Positions 3,861 through 34,868 of a stretch of 64,000 nt of DNA are shown one piece after another. Positions within the stretch are counted from its first letter, which is position 1. Each line of letters starts with the position of its first letter. The position numbers and the translations under genes were made by a program. The notes under the pieces are model-generated. The model saw nothing but the letters and a program-made list of their open reading frames with translations, made no database searches and was not told the DNA's origin. Source of the DNA: Granulicella sp. (GTDB taxonomy: Bacteria > Acidobacteriota > Terriglobia > Terriglobales > Acidobacteriaceae); assembly GCA_025408425.1 (NCBI GenBank), contig JANXYX010000016.1, positions 62,001 to 126,000 of the forward strand, given 5' to 3'.

Positions 3861-6479
3861 ATGCGCCTGAACTCGGCTCTCCGCCACACCCTCCTCGCTC
3901 TCACCGCGCTCGTCCCAGCGGCGTCCCTCATGGCCCAGCGCCTCCCCGCCAACGCTCACCCCGACCATTACTCGCTAGCTCTCACCCCCGACCTCAAAGC
4001 CGCCACCTTCACCGGCTCCGAAACCATCGACCTCACCCTCGACTCCCCCAGCAGCGCCATCACCCTCAACGCCGCCGAGATCAAATTCCTCTCCGTTACC
4101 GCCGGAACCCAATCCGCCACCGTCTCCTACGACGAAGCCAAAGAGCAAGCCACCCTCACCTTCCCCCAACCGCTCTCCGGCAAAGTTACCCTCGCCATCC
4201 AATACACCGGAATCCTCAACGACAAACTCCGCGGCTTCTACCTCTCCAGGACCACCGCCCGCAACTACGCCGTCACCCAGTTCGAACCCACTGACGCACG
4301 CCGCGCCTTCCCCTCCTTCGACGAGCCAGCCTACAAAGCCACCTTCGACATCGCCCTCACCATCGACGCCGCAGACACCGTCATCTCCAACACAAACCAA
4401 ATCTCAGACACCCCCGCCACCCCCGGCAAGCACACCCTCAAATTCGCCACCACCCCAAAGATGTCCACCTACCTCGTAGCCTTCCTCGTAGGCGATTTCC
4501 AGTGCACCACCGGCAAGTCAGACGGCGTTCCCATCCGCGCCTGCTCCACGCCCGACAAGGTCAAGCTCACCCGCTTCGCCGTCGAGTCTGCCAAATACAT
4601 CCTCCACTACTACGACACCTACTTCGGCATTAAGTACCCCATGCCAAAGCTCGACATGATCGCTCTCCCCGACTTCGAAGCCGGAGCCATGGAGAACTTC
4701 GGCTGCATCACCTACCGCGAGACGGACCTTCTTCTCGACAGCAAAACTGCCACCATCACCGCAAAGAAAAACGTCGCCTCCGTAGTCGCCCACGAGATGG
4801 CCCATCAGTGGTTCGGCGACATGGTCACCATGCAGTGGTGGGACAATATCTGGCTCAACGAGGGCTTCGCCACCTGGATGGAGGCCAAGCCCCTCGCCAA
4901 CTGGCACCCTGAGTGGAACGTCCCTCAGGACGTCGCTCAGGATCTCGACGCCACCCTCAACTACGACGCGATCGCCACCACCCGCACCATCCGCGCCAAC
5001 GCCTCCACCCCCGACGAGATCAACGAGCTATTCGACGGCATCGCCTACGGCAAAGCCGGAGCCGTCCTCGGCATGCTCGAAACCTACCTCGGCCAAGAGA
5101 CCTTCCGTCAGGGAGTCCACAACTATCTCCAGGCCCATCTCTACGCCAACGCCACCGCAGAAGACTTCTGGAACGCCCAGACCGCCATCTCCAACCTTCC
5201 CGTCGACAAGATCATGCAGAGCTTCGTCGATCAACCCGGCGTCCCCCTCCTCACCTTCCGCGACGCCTTCGCCGGCCTTGCTCCTGTAACCCAGCAGCGC
5301 TTCTTCTCCGCTGCACAGGGCAATCCCGCCACCGCCGCCAACCCCCAGCGCTGGACCCTCCCCGTCTGCATCAAGACCAGCTCTACCCCCACCTGCATCG
5401 TCCTCACCCCCCAGGACTCCGCGCTCTCCCTCCCCATCGACATCGGCGTCCCTGTCTTCTATGCCAACGCCACCGGCAAGGGTTACTACCGCACCCAATA
5501 CACTCCCTTCCAATACGCTGCCATCACGGCCAACACCGAAACCGCTCTCCCCCCCGTGGCGCGCATCGGTCTCCTTGGTGATCGCTGGGCACTGGTCAAC
5601 TCAGGCCAGATCAACATCGGCGAATTCCTCGACCTCATCCTCTCCCTCAAACACGACTCCAGCGCTGCAGTCATCGAGACTGTCCTCAACAAGATCAACG
5701 CCATCGAATCCCGCATCGCCAATGCTCAAGATCGCGACCAGATATCCGCAGTGATCCGTCACGAGTTCGGCCCCATCTACGCAGCGCTCGGCCGGCCTGC
5801 AAAGAACGACTCCTTTGATCGCCAGATGCTCCGCGCCAATCTCTTCGAACTCCTCGGCGAAGCAAAGGATCCAGCCGCCATCACCCAGGCCAGTCAAATC
5901 ACCAACCGTGTCTTCGCCCGGCGCACCAAACCCGACAAGACCTTGGACCCCATGCTCTCCGACGTCGCACTCTACATCGCAGCTACTACCGGAGACGCCA
6001 CTCTCTACGACAAAGTCCTCGCTGTCAGTCAGGATCCTCATGACCCCGACCTTCAGTCCGACGCTCTTCGCGCTCTTACCCGCTTCCAGTCGCCAGCTCT
6101 CGTCACCCGCACCCTGGACTACGCCGTCTCCGGACATGTCCGAAATCAGGATAGCTGGATCCTCATGGCTGCTGTCCTCACCGCCCGGGAGACGCGCGAT
6201 CAAGCTTGGGATTACATCCAGCAGCACTGGGACAAAGTACACGCCCAGTTCACCACCAACTCCGGCGTGCGCATCGTAGCCGCTGCCGGCTCCTTCTGCA
6301 CCGCGCAGCAGCGGGATCAAGTCACTACCTTCTTCGCGACTCATCCCGTCGATGCCTCGGAGCGCACCCTCGCCAAATCCATCGACAGCATCAACGCCTG
6401 CATCCAGCTCCGCGCCACCCAGCAGCCCAACCTCCACCACTGGCTCGCCACACAACCCAACTCAGCCCTGTCACAATAG
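3861..6479 (+). CDS. M1-family zinc aminopeptidase, exported
   Basis: Removes N-terminal residues from peptides, probably in the periplasm. An 872-residue protein with an N-terminal signal peptide ending near ASLMAQ. The exopeptidase motif GAMEN is at 275-279. The zinc site HEMAH is at 311-315, with the third ligand Glu at 334 in NEGFA, giving the exact HEXXH-X18-E gluzincin spacing. A C-terminal ERAP1-like helical domain fills residues 540-870. Length and layout match PepN/ERAP-like M1 enzymes rather than leukotriene A4 hydrolases. The MFS gene starts 7 bases downstream. There are no other peptidase genes nearby to define a specific substrate, so its biological target is unknown. Confidence 0.93.
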
Positions 6480-28621: not shown

Positions 28622-30049
28622 TCAGCTCTGAGAGGAATCCGACGCCTGCTCGCCCTCAATCTCATCGGCTTCCTTGACTAGCCGCCCAGCGTCCCCCGAA
28701 ACGACAGGCTCCACCCCCTCCCGCACTTCCTCCAGAATCCGCACCTTCTCCCCCTTAGCTGCCTCCCGCTGCGTCTCAGCCATTACTGCGGGCTCACCCA
28801 GCACCATCCGCGCCGCGCCCCGCAGAATCCGTCGCACCGGCCAACTCCCATCCTCCCGCGGCAGAAAAACCTCACCCACCCGCTGCTTCTCAGGCCTGTA
28901 GTACCACCGCCGCAGCAGCGACAGATGATCGCTCAGCATCGCCAGATCATTCGTACTCCCCACCCGCTCCTTCAACGCCGCAAGCACCTGCGCAGCCCGT
29001 TCCTCCGGCGAATCCTTCACCACACCTTCCACCCCAATCTCCCCATCCAGCGGAACCGCCTGCAGCATCAGTGGCTGTGCAAACAAGCTGCTTCCCACGC
29101 TCGTCTGCTCCTTCACCGCCCTTACCCCCAGCGTCGACAATCGCTCCGGCCCCGCCAGGCACCCACCCTCCAGCATGAAAATTGCCGCTTCATCATCCCG
29201 CTCACCTGTCTTCGCCGCCGCCTGCACCACCACCGCCTTCAGCTTCGGCACTGGCCTCACCATCTCATCCGCCAGCGCAATCGCCGCCTTCACCTTGTGC
29301 CACTGAGCATGCAGCGCCGCAGCCTTCTCAAACTCCATCGCCGCCGAAGCCTCTTCCCGCTCCAGCCCAATCGCGATCACCATGCTCTCGCCCCGCGTAT
29401 CGAAAAACGCCTTCACCGCCCTCGCCTCCGCCCCATACTCCTCCGCCGTACAAGCCATCTTGCAGGGCTCCAGACACTTCTTCATCTCCCCATACACACA
29501 CCCCGGATGCTCCGGATACGGATGCAACTCCTCATGGCACCGCCGCAGCTTGAACAGGTCCAGCACCGCATCGCAGTACCGCTCCGCCGCCGCCCGCGAA
29601 GGAAACGGCCCATACATCGTCCCCAGCGCCCGCTTGCTCAACCGGTTCGTCACATATACCCGCGGAAAATCATTCTCCATCGTCATTCTTAGGAAGTAAG
29701 GCGTATGCAGCTTCAACCGCCTCCGCGCCTCCGCATACCCAAAGATCGCCGCCGCCGCGTGATACAGCACCACCGAAGACTCAAACTCCGACCCCGTGGA
29801 GCAGTACTCGATCCGCGCCACCTTCTCCCGCAGATTCAGCCGCTTCGACTGCTCCTCCGGCGGGTCCAGTAAGCGCCGCATCCTCCGCCGCATATCCGCC
29901 GTCCGCGTCAGATAAGGCTCATCCCCCACCCGCGCCCCACACAGCGCAAACACCCCCGGACCCGCCGGAACCGAGCGCAAGATCTCCTCCGCCCGCCCCG
30001 CCTCAAACCCAACCAGCACATCGAAATGAAAGTGAGCCGCCACCGCCAC
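28622..30049 (-). CDS. Shortened UvrC-like protein, GIY-YIG plus UVR domain, no RNase H-like nuclease
   Basis: 475 residues that line up with the N-terminal two-thirds of UvrC. The GIY-YIG region is altered: GVF at 32-34 and YLT at 46-48 in place of GxY and YxG. UvrC-type cysteines follow in CHEELHPYPEHPGCVYG and MKKCLEPCKMAC (the four-Cys iron-sulfur type pattern), then a UVR motif LEREEASAAMEFEKAAAL at about residue 225. The C-terminal RNase H-like endonuclease and HhH domains of true UvrC are missing. So this is a UvrC paralogue or Cho-like protein rather than the excinuclease subunit; Cho has only the GIY-YIG half too. Role in repair is inferred. Confidence 0.75.
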   Translation of the reverse strand: MAVAAHFHFDVLVGFEAGRAEEILRSVPAGPGVFALCGARVGDEPYLTRTADMRRRMRRLLDPPEEQSKRLNLREKVARIEYCSTGSEFESSVVLYHAAAAIFGYAEARRRLKLHTPYFLRMTMENDFPRVYVTNRLSKRALGTMYGPFPSRAAAERYCDAVLDLFKLRRCHEELHPYPEHPGCVYGEMKKCLEPCKMACTAEEYGAEARAVKAFFDTRGESMVIAIGLEREEASAAMEFEKAAALHAQWHKVKAAIALADEMVRPVPKLKAVVVQAAAKTGERDDEAAIFMLEGGCLAGPERLSTLGVRAVKEQTSVGSSLFAQPLMLQAVPLDGEIGVEGVVKDSPEERAAQVLAALKERVGSTNDLAMLSDHLSLLRRWYYRPEKQRVGEVFLPREDGSWPVRRILRGAARMVLGEPAVMAETQREAAKGEKVRILEEVREGVEPVVSGDAGRLVKEADEIEGEQASDSSQS

Positions 30050-30103: not shown

Positions 30104-30433
30104 ATGTTCACGATTCAAGCTGCTCGCAAACTGATATCGTTCACCGCCCTAGCCTTCGTGTGCGGCTTGCCAGCGCGTAGTCAACAGAGCCGGAACAGTC
30201 AGCATTCTGTAGCGAATGTGAGATCGTGCACCCTATCGCTGCTCCATTCACTTCGTCGGAAACCACTATATTCAGTTCAAGCAGCAACGTGGCAATTTGT
30301 AGCCATCACGACCCCGCGATCATCATCCCCTCAACCCGAATCGTCGGCGCAGCACTCGCCCCACGAAACACCAGATCGTTCCCAATCGCCACAATATTTT
30401 TGTACATGTCCTTCAAGTTCCCAGCGATCGTAA
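30104..30433 (+). other. Possible small secreted ORF or remnant overlapping tldE end
   Basis: A 109-codon frame on the plus strand starts with a signal-peptide-like segment (KLISFTALAFVCGLPARS) then becomes Ser/His-rich and runs antisense over the last 130 bases of tldE. I see no family match or good ribosome-binding site. It could be a chance frame, or the 5' end of a decayed secreted-protein gene. Confidence 0.15.
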
Positions 30434-31721
30434 TCTCCTCCACCGGATACGCGATCTCGCCGTTCTCAATCCACATCCCACTCGCCCCCTGCGAGTAGTC
30501 GCCCGTCACCAGGTTCACCCCGAACCCCATCACCTCTGTCACGTACAAGCCGCTCTGCACGTCCAAAATGATCTCTTCCGGCGTCTCCGTCCCCGGCTCC
30601 AGATAAAAATTGTGCGCCCCAATCCCAGGATTCCCAGCCAGCCCTCGCGAAGCGTTTCCCGTCGATCGCAGCCCCAGCTTCCGCGCCGTATAAGTATTCA
30701 TCACATAGTTCGTCAGGATGCCGCGCTCCACCAGCACCGTCCGCCGCGTCGGCAGTCCCTCGCCATCGAATGGCGAAGTCCCAAACCCGCCAATCCCATC
30801 CAGCACCATCGTCCCGTCGTCCACCACGGTAATGTTGTGCCCCGCCACTTGCTCGCCCAGCATCCCCGCAAAGAAAGATGCATTCCGATAGATCGCATCT
30901 CCTTCTGCCGCACTGAAGATATTGCCCATGATCGACTTTGAAATCTCAGGAGAAAACACCACCGGAGCCTTCTGCGTCTTCACCCGCCGGGCCCCCAGCC
31001 GTCTCAGCGTCCTCCGTGCCGCCTCCTCGCCCACCTCTTCAGGAGACTCCAGTTTCTTCGTCGTCCGCGAGCTCGAATACCAGTAGTTCCGCTGCATCCC
31101 ACCCTTCTCGTCCACCGCAATCGGCGAAACCGAGAACCCGCAATAACTCCGCCGATACTCACCCCAGAACCCCCGGGAGTTCATCAGTATCTTATGGGAG
31201 GTCGCCGTCTCAAACTCCGAACCCCCAGAGTTTTGAATCCGCGTGTCATACGCCATCGCCGCAGCCTCGCACCGCCGCGCTACCTCGATCCGCTCGGCCG
31301 GCGGCTGCTCGTTCACATCATCAAAGTACAACTTCAGATCGCCCCCGTCGGGAGCACAGGTCTGCCCGAACTCATGAGCCTCCGGCAGCCCGGCGAACGG
31401 GTCTTCACTGGTAATCTTCGCCAGCGTCACCGCCCCATCCACCAGCCGGGCAATGCTCTCGTCCGAGAAGTCCGACGACGAAGTACTCGCCACACGCTGC
31501 CCGATAAACACCCGCAGGCCCACCGCCCGCGAGCCAGACTCTTTCAGCGTCTCCACCTGCCCCAGCCGCACCAGTGCAGAGAACTCATCGCCCTCATACA
31601 CCACGGCCTCAGCATCCGTAGCCCCAGCCTTCAACGCTCGGGCCAGAACATCCGCAGCAAGCTGCTTCATATCAGAAGAGACAACTGGGGAGGAGACATT
31701 CGCCGACGCAGACTGTGACAC
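30306..31721 (-). CDS. tldE: TldE/PmbA-family metalloprotease subunit
   Basis: The non-catalytic partner of the TldD/TldE peptidase, which in E. coli trims the microcin B17 precursor and degrades CcdA. 471 residues of the PmbA family: the N-terminal region AEAVVYEGDEFSALVRLGQVE, GSRAVGLRVFIGQRVAST, GTSPFDGEGLPTRRTV and the C-terminal LVTGDYSQGASGMWIENGE, NLKDMYKNIVAIGNDL. It lacks the HExxxH motif, as expected for TldE. Start: the GTG at 31719-31721 follows GAGGTG with good spacing, 8 bases after the upstream small gene. Encoded in one unit with tldD and two small CCHC genes. Confidence 0.92.
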   Translation of the reverse strand: MSQSASANVSSPVVSSDMKQLAADVLARALKAGATDAEAVVYEGDEFSALVRLGQVETLKESGSRAVGLRVFIGQRVASTSSSDFSDESIARLVDGAVTLAKITSEDPFAGLPEAHEFGQTCAPDGGDLKLYFDDVNEQPPAERIEVARRCEAAAMAYDTRIQNSGGSEFETATSHKILMNSRGFWGEYRRSYCGFSVSPIAVDEKGGMQRNYWYSSSRTTKKLESPEEVGEEAARRTLRRLGARRVKTQKAPVVFSPEISKSIMGNIFSAAEGDAIYRNASFFAGMLGEQVAGHNITVVDDGTMVLDGIGGFGTSPFDGEGLPTRRTVLVERGILTNYVMNTYTARKLGLRSTGNASRGLAGNPGIGAHNFYLEPGTETPEEIILDVQSGLYVTEVMGFGVNLVTGDYSQGASGMWIENGEIAYPVEEITIAGNLKDMYKNIVAIGNDLVFRGASAAPTIRVEGMMIAGS

Positions 31722-31729
31722 GATTCACC

Positions 31730-32038
31730 TCAACGAACAGGGGTTTGAGACATCCGCGGCAAACGGCCATCGGTCGACTTCAGAAAGTGAATGCCAGCCG
31801 AGCAATACTCCGAGTCGCTCTTCAGCTTGTGCTCAATATGCGGTGGCGGAGCATTCTCAACATGCCGCCGAAAAAGCTTCACCGCGCCGCCGCAATCCTT
31901 GCAACGGAACTCCGTATCGCTGTCGATCAGTGCCTCGGAGATCAGCTTCACCTTCCAGAACGGCTCATATCCACCGGTGGCGCGTACTCGCCGACGCTTC
32001 ACTTCACACTCATAAAACTTCTCGCGTTCGACTGCCAT
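31730..32038 (-). CDS. Small CCHC protein A, embedded in tldD-tldE operon
   Basis: A 102-residue protein not recognised as a named family. Conserved with its neighbour at 32132-32440: opening MAVEREKxYECEVKRRRV, GGYEPFWKVK at 22-31, DSDTEFRCKDCxGAVKL at 39-54, EHKL at 69-72, DSEYC at 75-79, TDGR at 89-92. Cys11, C46-x2-C49, H70 and C79 are kept in both, a CxxC...H...C arrangement like a zinc ribbon or knuckle. Start: ATG at 32036-32038 gives the MAVEREK opening; an adjacent ATG sits at 32041, and GAGGTGA lies just upstream. tldE starts 8 bases after its stop. Possible zinc-binding adaptor or TldD/E client. Confidence 0.75.
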   Translation of the reverse strand: MAVEREKFYECEVKRRRVRATGGYEPFWKVKLISEALIDSDTEFRCKDCGGAVKLFRRHVENAPPPHIEHKLKSDSEYCSAGIHFLKSTDGRLPRMSQTPVR

Positions 32039-32131
32039 CATTCACCTCGGGAATCTTGGTTATCTTTCGTTGTTTCGAACTTTCAGATGTGCCGCACGCA
32101 AGTCAATCGTTCTGCGCTGCTGCAAAAATCG

Positions 32132-32440
32132 TTATTCGACAGGATGCGCCGAGTGCTTCGCTTCGCGCCCATCGGTCGCCTTCTTAAACAGCATCCCGCC
32201 GGCGCAATACTCTGAGTCCGCAGGCAGCTTGTGTTCAACATAAGGGATCGTTCCTGCCTTGCCATTCCGGCCCATCAATTTCACTGCACCAAGGCAATCC
32301 TTGCAACGGAACTCCGTATCGCTGTCGGCCAGTGCAACTGCTACCGTCTTCACCTTCCAGAAAGGTTCGTAACCGCCGCCAACTTTCACACGCCGCCGTT
32401 TTACTTCACACTCGTAGATCTTCTCGCGTTCAACGGCCAT
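32132..32440 (-). CDS. Small CCHC protein B, paralogue of A, coupled to tldD
   Basis: A 102-residue protein. By hand alignment without gaps I count about 66 of 102 residues identical to protein A, with every Cys and His ligand kept (C11, C46, C49, H70, C79). Differences cluster in 55-68 (GRNGKAGTIP versus RRHVENAPPP) and the last ten residues. The ATG immediately follows the tldD TAA (32441-32443) with no spacer, and an AGGA box lies in the end of tldD, so translation is coupled to TldD. A 90-base gap separates it from protein A. It appears to be a tandem duplication kept intact. Function unknown. Confidence 0.78.
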   Translation of the reverse strand: MAVEREKIYECEVKRRRVKVGGGYEPFWKVKTVAVALADSDTEFRCKDCLGAVKLMGRNGKAGTIPYVEHKLPADSEYCAGGMLFKKATDGREAKHSAHPVE

Positions 32441-33886
32441 TTATTGTCCTGTTCCTCCGACCGTCATGCGGTCGAGCTTCACTGTTGGCATCCCTACGCC
32501 TACCGGCACGCTCTGCCCGGCCTTGCCGCAGGTGCCTATTCCTTCATCCAGCGCCAAATCGTTCCCAACCATCGAAACGTACTTCAACGCCTCTGGCCCG
32601 TTTCCAATCAACGTCGCGCCCTTCACCGGGCGAGTCACCTTACCGTCTTCAATCAGGTAAGCCTCACTGGCCGAGAACACAAACTTGCCGTTCGTAATAT
32701 CCACCTGCCCACCACCAAAGTTCACCGCGTACAACCCGCGCTTCACGCTCTTGATGATGTCTTCCGGCATATCCTCACCGTTCAGCATGTACGTATTCGT
32801 CATGCGCGGCATCGGGATATGGTGGTAGCTCTCCCGCCGCCCACTCCCCGTATTCGGCATTCCCATCAGCCGGGAGTTCAGCTTGTCCGAGAGAAATCCC
32901 TTCAGAATCCCGTTCTCAATCAGCACCGTCTCCTGGGTCGGATTCCCCTCGTCATCGATGTTGATCGATCCGCGCCGGTTCGGCATAAGTCCGTTGTCCA
33001 CCACCGTCACCTTGCTGCTTGCCACTTGCTGACCAATCAATCCCGCAAACGCCGAAGTCTTCTTGCGGTTGAAGTCCGCCTCCAGCCCATGACCGACAGC
33101 CTCGTGCAGCAGCACGCCTGGCCAACCCGGTCCCAGTACCACTTCCATCTCGCCTGCCGGAGCATCCACCGCCCCAAGCTGCAGAATCGCCGTACGCGCC
33201 GCCTCCCGCGCATAGTGCTCCGGGCTCTTGTCGCCTTCAAAGAAATCCAGTGTCACCCGACCACCGCCGCCGCTCGTTCCCCGCGCCGTGCTCGTCGCAT
33301 CCTTTGCGATCACGAAAACGTTCAGTCGCGCCAGTGGCTGCGTATCGCTCGCAAACGTTCCATCGCTCGCCGCCACCAGAATCCGTCTTAACTCGTCGTT
33401 AAAGCCCGCTCGAACCTGTGTAATCCGCGGATCGTAATCCCGCGCAGCCTTGTCCGCCCGCTGAATCAGCTTCAGCTTCGCCGCAATCTCTGCATCGCTC
33501 GTCGCCCCCGCCACTGGGTAAAGTGACTTCGGCGTCTCCGCATGGCGAAACCCGCTCATCAATTCCTTCGCAGGGCCACTCGCAATCAACGCTGCCGTCC
33601 GAGCCGCCCGCAGAAGCCGTTCGCTCGATAGATCATCCGTATACGCATACCCGGTGCGCTCACCGGACACCACACGAATCCCGCAACCAACACTGATTCC
33701 CTGGCTCGCCGACTTCACCAGCGACTCATCCACTCCCAGTGACGTAGACGTAACTGACTCAAAATAAAGGTCTGCATAATCCCCGCCAGCCGATAGTGCC
33801 TCCCCCAGGCAGCGTTCCATCAGGCGTTCCGATAAACCAAGCTTCTCAATGAAGTAGCGTTTATGGTCGGGTGCAGGTATTGTCAT
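32441..33886 (-). CDS. tldD: TldD metalloprotease subunit
   Basis: Catalytic subunit of the TldD/TldE peptidase that cleaves small flexible peptides. 481 residues with the zinc motif HEAVGH at 261-266 and downstream Glu 269 in GLEADF, which is the TldD HExxxH signature. FGGGQVDITNGKFVFSASE and the C-terminal GQSVPVGVGMPTVKLDRMTVGG are also typical. Length is normal for E. coli TldD. It heads a four-gene unit: tldD, small protein B, small protein A, tldE. Confidence 0.95.
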   Translation of the reverse strand: MTIPAPDHKRYFIEKLGLSERLMERCLGEALSAGGDYADLYFESVTSTSLGVDESLVKSASQGISVGCGIRVVSGERTGYAYTDDLSSERLLRAARTAALIASGPAKELMSGFRHAETPKSLYPVAGATSDAEIAAKLKLIQRADKAARDYDPRITQVRAGFNDELRRILVAASDGTFASDTQPLARLNVFVIAKDATSTARGTSGGGGRVTLDFFEGDKSPEHYAREAARTAILQLGAVDAPAGEMEVVLGPGWPGVLLHEAVGHGLEADFNRKKTSAFAGLIGQQVASSKVTVVDNGLMPNRRGSINIDDEGNPTQETVLIENGILKGFLSDKLNSRLMGMPNTGSGRRESYHHIPMPRMTNTYMLNGEDMPEDIIKSVKRGLYAVNFGGGQVDITNGKFVFSASEAYLIEDGKVTRPVKGATLIGNGPEALKYVSMVGNDLALDEGIGTCGKAGQSVPVGVGMPTVKLDRMTVGGTGQ

Positions 33887-33948
33887 CTATTCAATTCTAG
33901 GCTTCGCAGCCACGCGCGGCAAATGACCTCCCTCGCACCGTCGCTCAA

Positions 33949-34800
33949 TCAGCGTCCGTGCGACGGATCAGCCGACTCCGCAACGCTCAAATCCAGATGC
34001 ACTCCCGCCAGTTCCGGAGCGTAGCAGTTCCCATCCGCCGCATAGGTCTTCGCACACGCCGCCGTAATCTCCGGCCGCCGCGGAGACTGCGCATACTGCC
34101 AAACTGTAGCCTCCGGAGTCCCACTCGCCTCCAGCTTTGGTGCCTGCATCCTGCACCCATTCGAGGGCGGACACGCATCCTGATACACCCACACCGCAAT
34201 CTTCCCGCGGAAATACCCGCGAGTCTCTCGCTCCCGAATGTCCTGCGCCGTCGTAATCGTCTTGCCCCCGCCCTCGCTCACCGGTTGGCCGCTGCAATAT
34301 AGTCCAGGCTGGTACCCTCCGTCCGCCACCCGCTCCATCCAGCCCTTGATGTACCCGGCCTGATCCTCCGTCAACCGGCCACCCTCCTCCTGGTCCAGAA
34401 ACACAATCGTTCGAGCCGGAAAGCCTTCGCGCCGGGCGGCAGCGACGGCGTCCGTACCATCTTTCTGCCCCAGCGCCACCGCCGTCCCATGCATCGAGGC
34501 CCGTGTCGCCTTAATATCCGCCTCCTCTCTACCATTCGCCAGCACCGCAAACCCAAATCCATGCCGTATCAAGATCTCGCGCTTGCCGCTCCATGTGTTC
34601 GTCTTCTCCCCCGGCGGATTTGTCAGCCAATATCCAGCAAACGAGAACTCCTTACGCAGTACATCCAGCGCCATATCCCCCGGATAGTCGTTCCGGTCAA
34701 ACCCCACAAATCCGCGCCTCTGCTGAGCAACACTCACCAGGCTCAAAGCAAGTACTGCCACACCGCTAACCCACCACCGCGCAGATATTTTCCAATTCAT
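33949..34800 (-). CDS. DUF1906 (Rv2525c-like) glycoside-hydrolase-like protein, exported
   Basis: A 283-residue secreted protein. Signal peptide (cut near VSVAQQ). The core begins GFVGFDRNDYPGD, then FAGYWLTNPPGEKTNTW, FVLANGREEAD-type segments, FLDQEEGGRL at about 145, and the barrel end PGLYCSGQPV. These are features of the Rv2525c-like, glycoside-hydrolase-like TIM barrel (DUF1906) found in secreted proteins of actinobacteria and others. Acidic FDRND and DQEE positions are candidate catalytic residues. Start: ATG at 34800; a GTG at 34809 is open too. Single gene, on the minus strand, divergent from the DinB-like gene. Confidence 0.75.
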   Translation of the reverse strand: MNWKISARWWVSGVAVLALSLVSVAQQRRGFVGFDRNDYPGDMALDVLRKEFSFAGYWLTNPPGEKTNTWSGKREILIRHGFGFAVLANGREEADIKATRASMHGTAVALGQKDGTDAVAAARREGFPARTIVFLDQEEGGRLTEDQAGYIKGWMERVADGGYQPGLYCSGQPVSEGGGKTITTAQDIRERETRGYFRGKIAVWVYQDACPPSNGCRMQAPKLEASGTPEATVWQYAQSPRRPEITAACAKTYAADGNCYAPELAGVHLDLSVAESADPSHGR

Positions 34801-34868
34801 CCAGTGCACCTTATAACCTGATGCTAATTCCTGTGCTAACTTTGCTTTCCAGAGTCTAAAGGAACGAC

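Follow-up and report, generated by a model that had tools for sequence, protein, structure and literature searches.

Putative zinc-finger genes recur between tldD and tldE in Acidobacteriaceae-like bacteria

Introduction

The known natural substrates of the heterodimeric metalloprotease TldD/TldE (TldE is also named PmbA) are microcin B17, CcdA, and a few ribosomally synthesized and post-translationally modified peptides (RiPPs). Here we discuss a locus in which two small paralogous genes, referred to as B and A, are positioned between the genes for the two subunits. It is located in a stretch of 64,000 nucleotides from Granulicella sp. (GenBank assembly GCA_025408425.1, contig JANXYX010000016.1, positions 62,001 to 126,000 of the forward strand), hereafter the window.

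The Escherichia coli protease is described as a hollow heterodimer that cuts unfolded N-termini and has no sequence preference; specificity is thought to be set by access via a narrow channel, and cutting is estimated to require at least some 15 unfolded N-terminal residues (PMC5810440). The protease itself is known, but no account of the additional operon component was found: in open-licence PubMed Central papers on TldD/TldE, PmbA, and acidobacteria, the titles and abstract openings listed give no description of a zinc-finger partner or of the arrangement discussed below.

Organization of the locus

The genes are all encoded on the minus strand, in the order tldD, B, A, tldE (positions refer to the window).

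32441-33886, minus strand: tldD, the catalytic subunit; three Pfam PmbA/TldD domains, NCBIfam TldD score 578.9 bits against a cut-off of 513, motifs HEAVGH and GTCGK
32132-32440, minus strand: B, first type 1 paralog, putative zinc-finger protein of 102 residues; its ATG abuts the tldD stop; best model pLDDT 88 (see below)
32204-32305, minus strand: codons 46-79 of B, span of the putative zinc ligands C46, C49, H70, and C79 (alignments A1 and A3, see below)
31730-32041, minus strand: A, second type 1 paralog, putative zinc-finger protein of 103 residues; Shine-Dalgarno-like GAGGTG upstream of the start
31802-31903, minus strand: codons 47-80 of A, the same four putative ligands (numbering +1 relative to B owing to an extra Met; alignments A1 and A3)
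30306-31721, minus strand: tldE (pmbA), identified by Pfam; GTG start 8 bases past A, with Shine-Dalgarno-like GAGGTGA
33894-33922, minus strand: weak sigma-70-like promoter match, ending 7 bases ahead of the tldD ATG

A preliminary description, made from the window alone, had read these genes as one minus-strand unit in which B starts at the base after the tldD stop and tldE starts 8 bases beyond A; coordinates and sequence agree with all of this. The TAA of tldD directly abuts the ATG of B (TAAATG), a GGAGG is present within the tldD 3′ end, and the gap between B and A is 90 bases. In the 5 kb scanned, three sigma-70-like sites were found against 1.7 expected by chance, and the promoter match ahead of tldD is therefore weak.

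Both the tldD and the tldE products carry PF01523, PF19290, and PF19289 above the Pfam cut-off, and the TldD translation has the HExxxH motif (HEAVGH) and the cysteine of GTCGKAG, as in the paired subunits of the TldD/TldE metalloprotease. The window TldE scores below the NCBIfam PmbA cut-off (355.3 versus 438 bits); at the level of sequence, its name is supported by the Pfam domains, by a PmbA score that is better than its TldD score, and by its position. In a search of the source genome, the first TldD domain was found only in tldD and tldE and the small protein only as A and B. The first TldD/TldE domain was detected in 10 of 14 control genomes.

Two genes outside the unit are conserved neighbors in many relatives. 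A UvrC-like protein (28622-30049; its UVR motif is below the cut-off) is often encoded downstream of tldE, and an Rv2525c-like glycoside hydrolase (33949-34809) often upstream of tldD.

Linkage to tldD and tldE in relatives

The tldD-(zinc finger)-tldE arrangement, with one or two copies of the small gene, is a recurrent unit of Acidobacteriaceae-like bacteria. A scan of public genome contigs gave 43 loci, mostly labeled Granulicella, Edaphobacter, Terriglobus, or Acidobacteriaceae. tldD is upstream of the small gene in 40 of these and tldE downstream in 37, and at least one of them is present in 42; the sole unlinked locus (L032) is on the same contig (strain M8US30) as a locus that does adjoin tldD (L018). 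Of the 40 loci with tldD upstream, 18 show a one-base overlap (TAATG) between the tldD stop and the start of the small gene; the start is at most 30 bases past the stop in 13 and farther away in nine (maximum 879 bases). The overlap is thus the commonest arrangement in relatives, while the window genes abut instead. In these 18 loci (tldD 3′ ends in L012-L039), the TAATG overlap suggests translational coupling.

The same picture emerges when genomes rather than loci are counted. In a set of 62 genomes of the genus, tldD is present in all, at least one member of the small-gene superfamily in 50, and such a gene 3′ of tldD in 49. The slot holds two copies in 39 genomes, one in nine, three in one, and none in 13. 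Measured from the end of the TldD match, the median offset of the small gene is 6 bases; 38 of the 49 have an offset of 29 bases or less, and 17 are at the minimum of 3, which corresponds to the one-base overlap. In a draw of 200 genomes from the family, the profile of alignment A1 matched 31, and in 22 of these the match is in the tldD-tldE region (G000, G098, G150, G168, G182, G196, G023, G090, G163, G178, G193, G183, G102, G141, G197, G070, G142, G181, G119, G158, G174, G188). This linked set includes proteins that are about 30% identical to B and were picked by a profile independent of tldD. The public, genus, and family sets partly overlap and are related by descent, so their counts are not independent. 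Nevertheless, linkage extends beyond one genus (42 of 43 loci, 49 of 62 genus genomes, and 22 of the 31 matching genomes from the family draw), and conserved linkage across genera is what the preliminary description had proposed to look for as support for a functional partnership.

The unit is retained when its surroundings differ. In L100, L123, L125, and L126, the order tldD-zinc finger-tldE is kept, and tblastn did not find the DinB, hydrolase, UvrC-like, and rpe neighbors of the window in the stretch. In L121, the zinc finger is about 70 bases from tldE even though tldD is 4.2 kb off, and in L047 it is by tldD with tldE outside the stretch. Given how consistently some groups show the arrangement, the small proteins are probably helpers or regulators of TldD/TldE.

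Four of the public loci have unexpected titles: L035, L037, and L038 are named Rhodanobacteraceae and L040 Verrucomicrobia. The local gene order is the same in all four, TldD in L037, L038, and L040 is 85 to 89% identical to that of the window, and TldE in L035 is 77% identical. These records probably represent acidobacterial genomes that were wrongly named or wrongly binned.

The small proteins

A and B are identical at 66 of 101 aligned residues (E 2e-49). The 65% identity given in the preliminary description is thereby retained, although its hand count was 66 of 102. The description had also listed C11, C46/C49, H70, and C79 as conserved. In alignment A1 (33 relatives), C46, C49, H70, D75, and C79 are invariant, among others; C11 is found only among the columns with at least 90% conservation, L037 having a valine there. 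Alignment A3, in which A and B are among the 22 members, consists mostly of very divergent sequences (mean column identity 37%), and its fully invariant columns are exactly four, corresponding to C46, C49, H70, and C79 (C-x2-C, H, C). From this CCHC pattern, we infer that A and B would bind one zinc. One member, L010, is without the second half of the motif.

Nei-Gojobori ratios of nonsynonymous to synonymous change (dN/dS), taken against L013, amount to about 0.057 (B) and 0.068 (A), and the values for tldD and tldE are 0.02 and 0.11, respectively; three further comparisons per gene are partly saturated, L014 and L016 being saturated or nearly so at synonymous sites. A and B are real genes under purifying selection.

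AlphaFold2, run with 48 aligned sequences, gave five models with a predicted local distance difference test score (pLDDT) from 88.3 down to 73.6. The best, which is used here, has a predicted template modeling score of 0.74 and no residue below pLDDT 50. It predicts a compact fold with strands at residues 10-18, 24-32, 52-56, and 67-70 plus short helices, the first strand beginning at about residue 8-10.

This fold bears on the possibility that A and B are clients of the protease. Here, the zinc-loaded form would be folded and safe, while the apo form would unfold and enter TldD/E N-terminus first, such that the pair constitutes a zinc-responsive switch; the degradation of the antitoxin CcdA by TldD/E would be an analog. 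Coupling of the gene with the protease fits this idea, as does the variable N-terminus, which in some members is extended by several residues ahead of the conserved core. It is also in keeping with the acceptance of unfolded N-termini by TldD/E, but the same source puts the estimated need at 15 or more unfolded residues (PMC5810440), whereas the first strand is predicted from about residue 8-10 and no residue falls below pLDDT 50. In their zinc-bound state, A and B accordingly look, on this model, like poor TldD/E substrates. Moreover, there is no toxin or RiPP enzyme among the four neighboring proteins that were searched for domains. We consider the client explanation unlikely.

The more specific idea of a RiPP precursor is not supported, given a best model with pLDDT 88 and no residue below 50, the low dN/dS, and the absence of a RiPP enzyme among the four Pfam-scanned neighbors. 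The short N-terminus and the conserved CCHC site within a domain predicted to be folded are a poor fit to a RiPP-like client.

CoiA has a CxxC...H...C spacing with a preceding hydrophobic element. A and B have no match to the CoiA_N model (PF25164) at E ≤10, and none to DUF7830 (PF25169). Their relatives do match weakly. For CoiA_N, the best relative has E 0.00058, the matches listed reach at most 19.5 bits against a cut-off of 26.3, and of 48 type 1 members (A, B, and their relatives, see below) one matches, with E 0.04. At E ≤0.1, DUF7830 is matched by eight, CoiA_N by five, and DUF7828 (PF25165) by four of the 22 A3 members, and DUF7830 by 17 and DUF7828 by 16 of the 48 type 1 members; one distant unlinked relative, L115, passes the DUF7830 cut-off (28.0 versus 27.5 bits). 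On the basis of these weak matches and the one above the cut-off, we regard the domain as CoiA_N-like and do not claim membership.

Other searches gave little. NCBIfam and PADLOC had zero matches to A or B, a PDB sequence search with B had none, and the PHROG matches to A and B are weak (E 0.038 or worse). DUF7561 (PF24442) matches residues 10-52 of B with E 0.00018 and 24 of the 48 type 1 members at E ≤0.1. Membership in DUF7561 was rejected because B is under the cut-off (21.8 versus 27 bits) and A has no match.

The likeness to CoiA_N raises the alternative of a nucleic-acid-binding regulator, in which a basic zinc finger, like CoiA_N domains, would control its own operon or client mRNAs. 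The calculated isoelectric point of the A/B zinc finger is 8.9-9.2, the N-terminal hairpin is basic (KRRRVK), and relatives are weakly similar to CoiA_N and DUF7830. CoiA itself is predicted to be a nuclease and has been implicated in DNA uptake (PMC1189080), but no nuclease domain is fused to A, B, or the type 1 members, and the CoiA_N similarity itself is seen neither in A and B nor, with the one exception given above, in type 1. We find this explanation quite improbable.

Evolutionary history of the slot

In the zinc-finger tree, the tldD-linked genes fall into two lineages. Type 1, to which A, B, and their relatives belong, is a group of 25 rows with support of 96/88; for one of these rows, L006, linkage is not shown. 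Next to type 1, the tree places genes from another acidobacterial family, and these do not adjoin tldD within the fetched stretches. Type 2 comprises RCPEC...GCSLGDCFDG-like sequences, for which a clade is not rejected (p 0.52). The approximately unbiased (AU) test rejects a single clade of all linked rows (p-AU 0.026, and 0.010 without long rows), with the same outcome when L006 is left free, and it rejects the grouping of five rows from genomes of TldD clade 1 (p-AU 0.0008), of which one, G090, was assigned by genus and not by its own TldD. The groups were chosen after an earlier quick tree, so these p values are softer than face value. The quick tree left out six of 103 rows (short or odd); for the AU trees, 40 of the 103 were selected to cover the spread and two more were added, and the test without long rows left out four. 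By these p values, the explanation that one ancestral gene was inherited together with tldD was rejected. In L030, moreover, a type 1 and a type 2 gene are present within one tldD-tldE interval. Taken together, the two linked lineages, the AU rejections, and L030 suggest that either the slot was filled at least twice by one superfamily or ancient paralogs were differentially lost.

Within type 1, B genes group together (Shimodaira-Hasegawa-like approximate likelihood ratio test, 98), as do A genes (80-90). Judged from these groupings, A and B seem to have diverged before most of the genus did.

Absence, displacement, and other occupants of the interval

A number of observations weigh against a dedicated function of the small gene with TldD/TldE. 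To begin with, a gene that sits between two genes functioning together might be kept passively. Furthermore, a census was made of 79 tldD regions of the family, picked as nearly complete and lacking a known linked zinc finger (hence not a random sample). With the A3 profile, none was found within 1.5 kb 3′ of tldD or within 400 bases of tldE, and tldD and tldE nevertheless remain adjacent (700 bases apart or less) in 59; in 19, they are farther apart or tldE is outside the stretch, and one is undecided. The view in the preliminary description that the two subunit genes are normally encoded alone or apart is consequently not upheld for the family Acidobacteriaceae. (CCHC regular-expression matches in L136, L160, and L165 look like out-of-frame noise, have no profile support, and were not counted.)

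In the genus, 12 of the 62 genomes have no match and one more has only a distant unlinked relative. Of these 13 slot-empty genomes, 12 were examined: seven have tldE on the same strand at a distance of 1.6-8.5 kb, one has it on the opposite strand, and in four it is outside the stretch. The genomes without a zinc finger (L134, L135, and L259-L268) form one clade of the TldD tree, and hence the coincidence of the loss with a separation of tldD and tldE, or with a tldE not found nearby, counts as one event. Among the 31 matching family genomes, nine have the match elsewhere or unplaced (G006, G064, G081, G099, G100, G106, G110, G166, G176). Of 396 genomes drawn from across the phylum, 25 gave a match; for the eight of these that fall outside the genus, the stretches examined (some of only 2-3 kb) contained neither tldD nor tldE. 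These absences indicate that the small gene is dispensable across the wider family and that the superfamily is not tied to tldD generally. Homologs mostly away from tldD/tldE would, according to the preliminary description, weaken the proposed partnership. This holds, within the stretches examined, for the deeper relatives (another acidobacterial family, "type 3" genes, and alphaproteobacterial plasmids), while the closer ones are mostly linked.

The interval also takes unrelated genes. L030 has, between B and tldE (5357-5994), a short nucleotidyltransferase-like open reading frame, labeled by reading, in addition to the type 2 zinc-finger gene. In L020, the open reading frame at 5877-6248, after A and ahead of tldE, looks like a HicB-type antitoxin, judged from its motif, and the interval seems to accept insertions. 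Lastly, no structural relative was found in a comparison that is uninformative on the fold (Foldseek against PDB and BFVD, nothing at E ≤0.001; VIA-align, nothing at Z ≥2).

These features lead to the explanation that the small gene is a passenger: the tldD 3′ end would be an insertion hot spot where a mobile CoiA_N-like zinc-finger gene landed repeatedly, to be kept by descent or for an unrelated function. Its presence is indeed patchy; in the TldD tree, whose 149 rows include several from a shared genome, it needs 15 changes, of which at least 10 gains or losses are forced by starred branches. That other genes are inserted in the interval, that relatives are found on plasmids and elsewhere, and that the 12 zinc-finger-less genus genomes examined belong to one TldD clade fit as well. 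A passenger is harder to reconcile with starts at or a few bases from the tldD stop (see above), with the low dN/dS, and with the position of the other insertions, which fall after the zinc finger except in L048 and L121, where they lie before it. Landing of the same superfamily repeatedly in the same slot is also hard to obtain by chance. On balance, we hold the passenger explanation to be rather unlikely.

Several members of the superfamily that are not at tldD deserve mention. For one type 1 relative (L124:1923-2249; genome G081; L006 in the tree), the fetched 9 kb contain no tldD, nor was one found in the G081 genome, which is 84% complete. Extra copies, for instance L032 and L270, are further close members not tied to tldD/tldE. 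On plasmids of Sphingobium and Methylobacterium, relatives (L274, L275) are placed where the plasmid gene table lists no gene. A plasmid search with a type 3 protein gave six records, while searches with B and with the L233 protein gave none; viral contigs had no relative of B, and phages, which were queried with the L233 protein and not with A or B, had none for it. In another acidobacterial family, an ATPase-like gene that by reading resembles OLD/AAA (L117:5381-7300) is about 100 bases past a relative. L237 has the zinc finger inside a 410-residue stop-to-stop frame with extra sequence on the C-terminal side, a possible fusion. L009 and L011, ABC-transporter-like open reading frames with profile E near 0.1, were dropped.

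Possible role of the small proteins

Collectively, we think it likely that the small proteins act in the same pathway as TldD/E. For genes between the two subunit genes, with starts at or near the neighboring stops, we infer that access-controlling accessory proteins or regulators are the best explanation. Because TldD/E cuts without sequence preference, selection must come from access, and an adaptor or gatekeeper would supply such control. In this scenario, the small proteins would be co-produced with the two subunits and act alongside them, docking on the TldD/TldE shell or on its clients, and the duplication would yield either two adaptors or, with A and B paired, a heterodimer. That they are zinc-stabilized accessory adaptors or gatekeepers of this kind is a reading we put forward tentatively, as possible rather than probable. 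A slightly bolder version, a dedicated zinc-finger partner of Acidobacteriaceae TldD/TldE that was recruited at least twice, was duplicated into A and B, and gates or feeds a sequence-blind chamber, is offered with somewhat greater reserve.

A family that is genetically tied to both subunits provides a handle, as it can be co-purified and deleted, and its partners may reveal TldD/E clients. If the accessory role holds, a protease that is widespread and present in bacteria and archaea would have an accessory subunit. If the gene is instead a passenger, the slot would still illustrate how a single small-gene superfamily can be recruited repeatedly to the same operon position.

Comparison with known systems

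The locus shares with TldD/TldE (PmbA) heterodimeric metalloproteases both subunits, the TldD zinc motif, and the same three Pfam domains, and differs in having one or two zinc-finger genes between the subunit genes. A and B have the CxxC...H...C spacing of CoiA_N, DUF7830, and DUF7828, but are stand-alone proteins of about 100 residues with no nuclease domain and are unmatched by these models. The resemblance to DUF7561 is confined to B, is below the cut-off, and does not extend to A. Like the RiPP and antitoxin clients of the protease (the microcin B17 precursor and CcdA), which are encoded beside or processed by TldD/E, A and B are small; in contrast to these, they are predicted to be folded from near the N-terminus, and among the four neighbors tested there is no modification enzyme or toxin.

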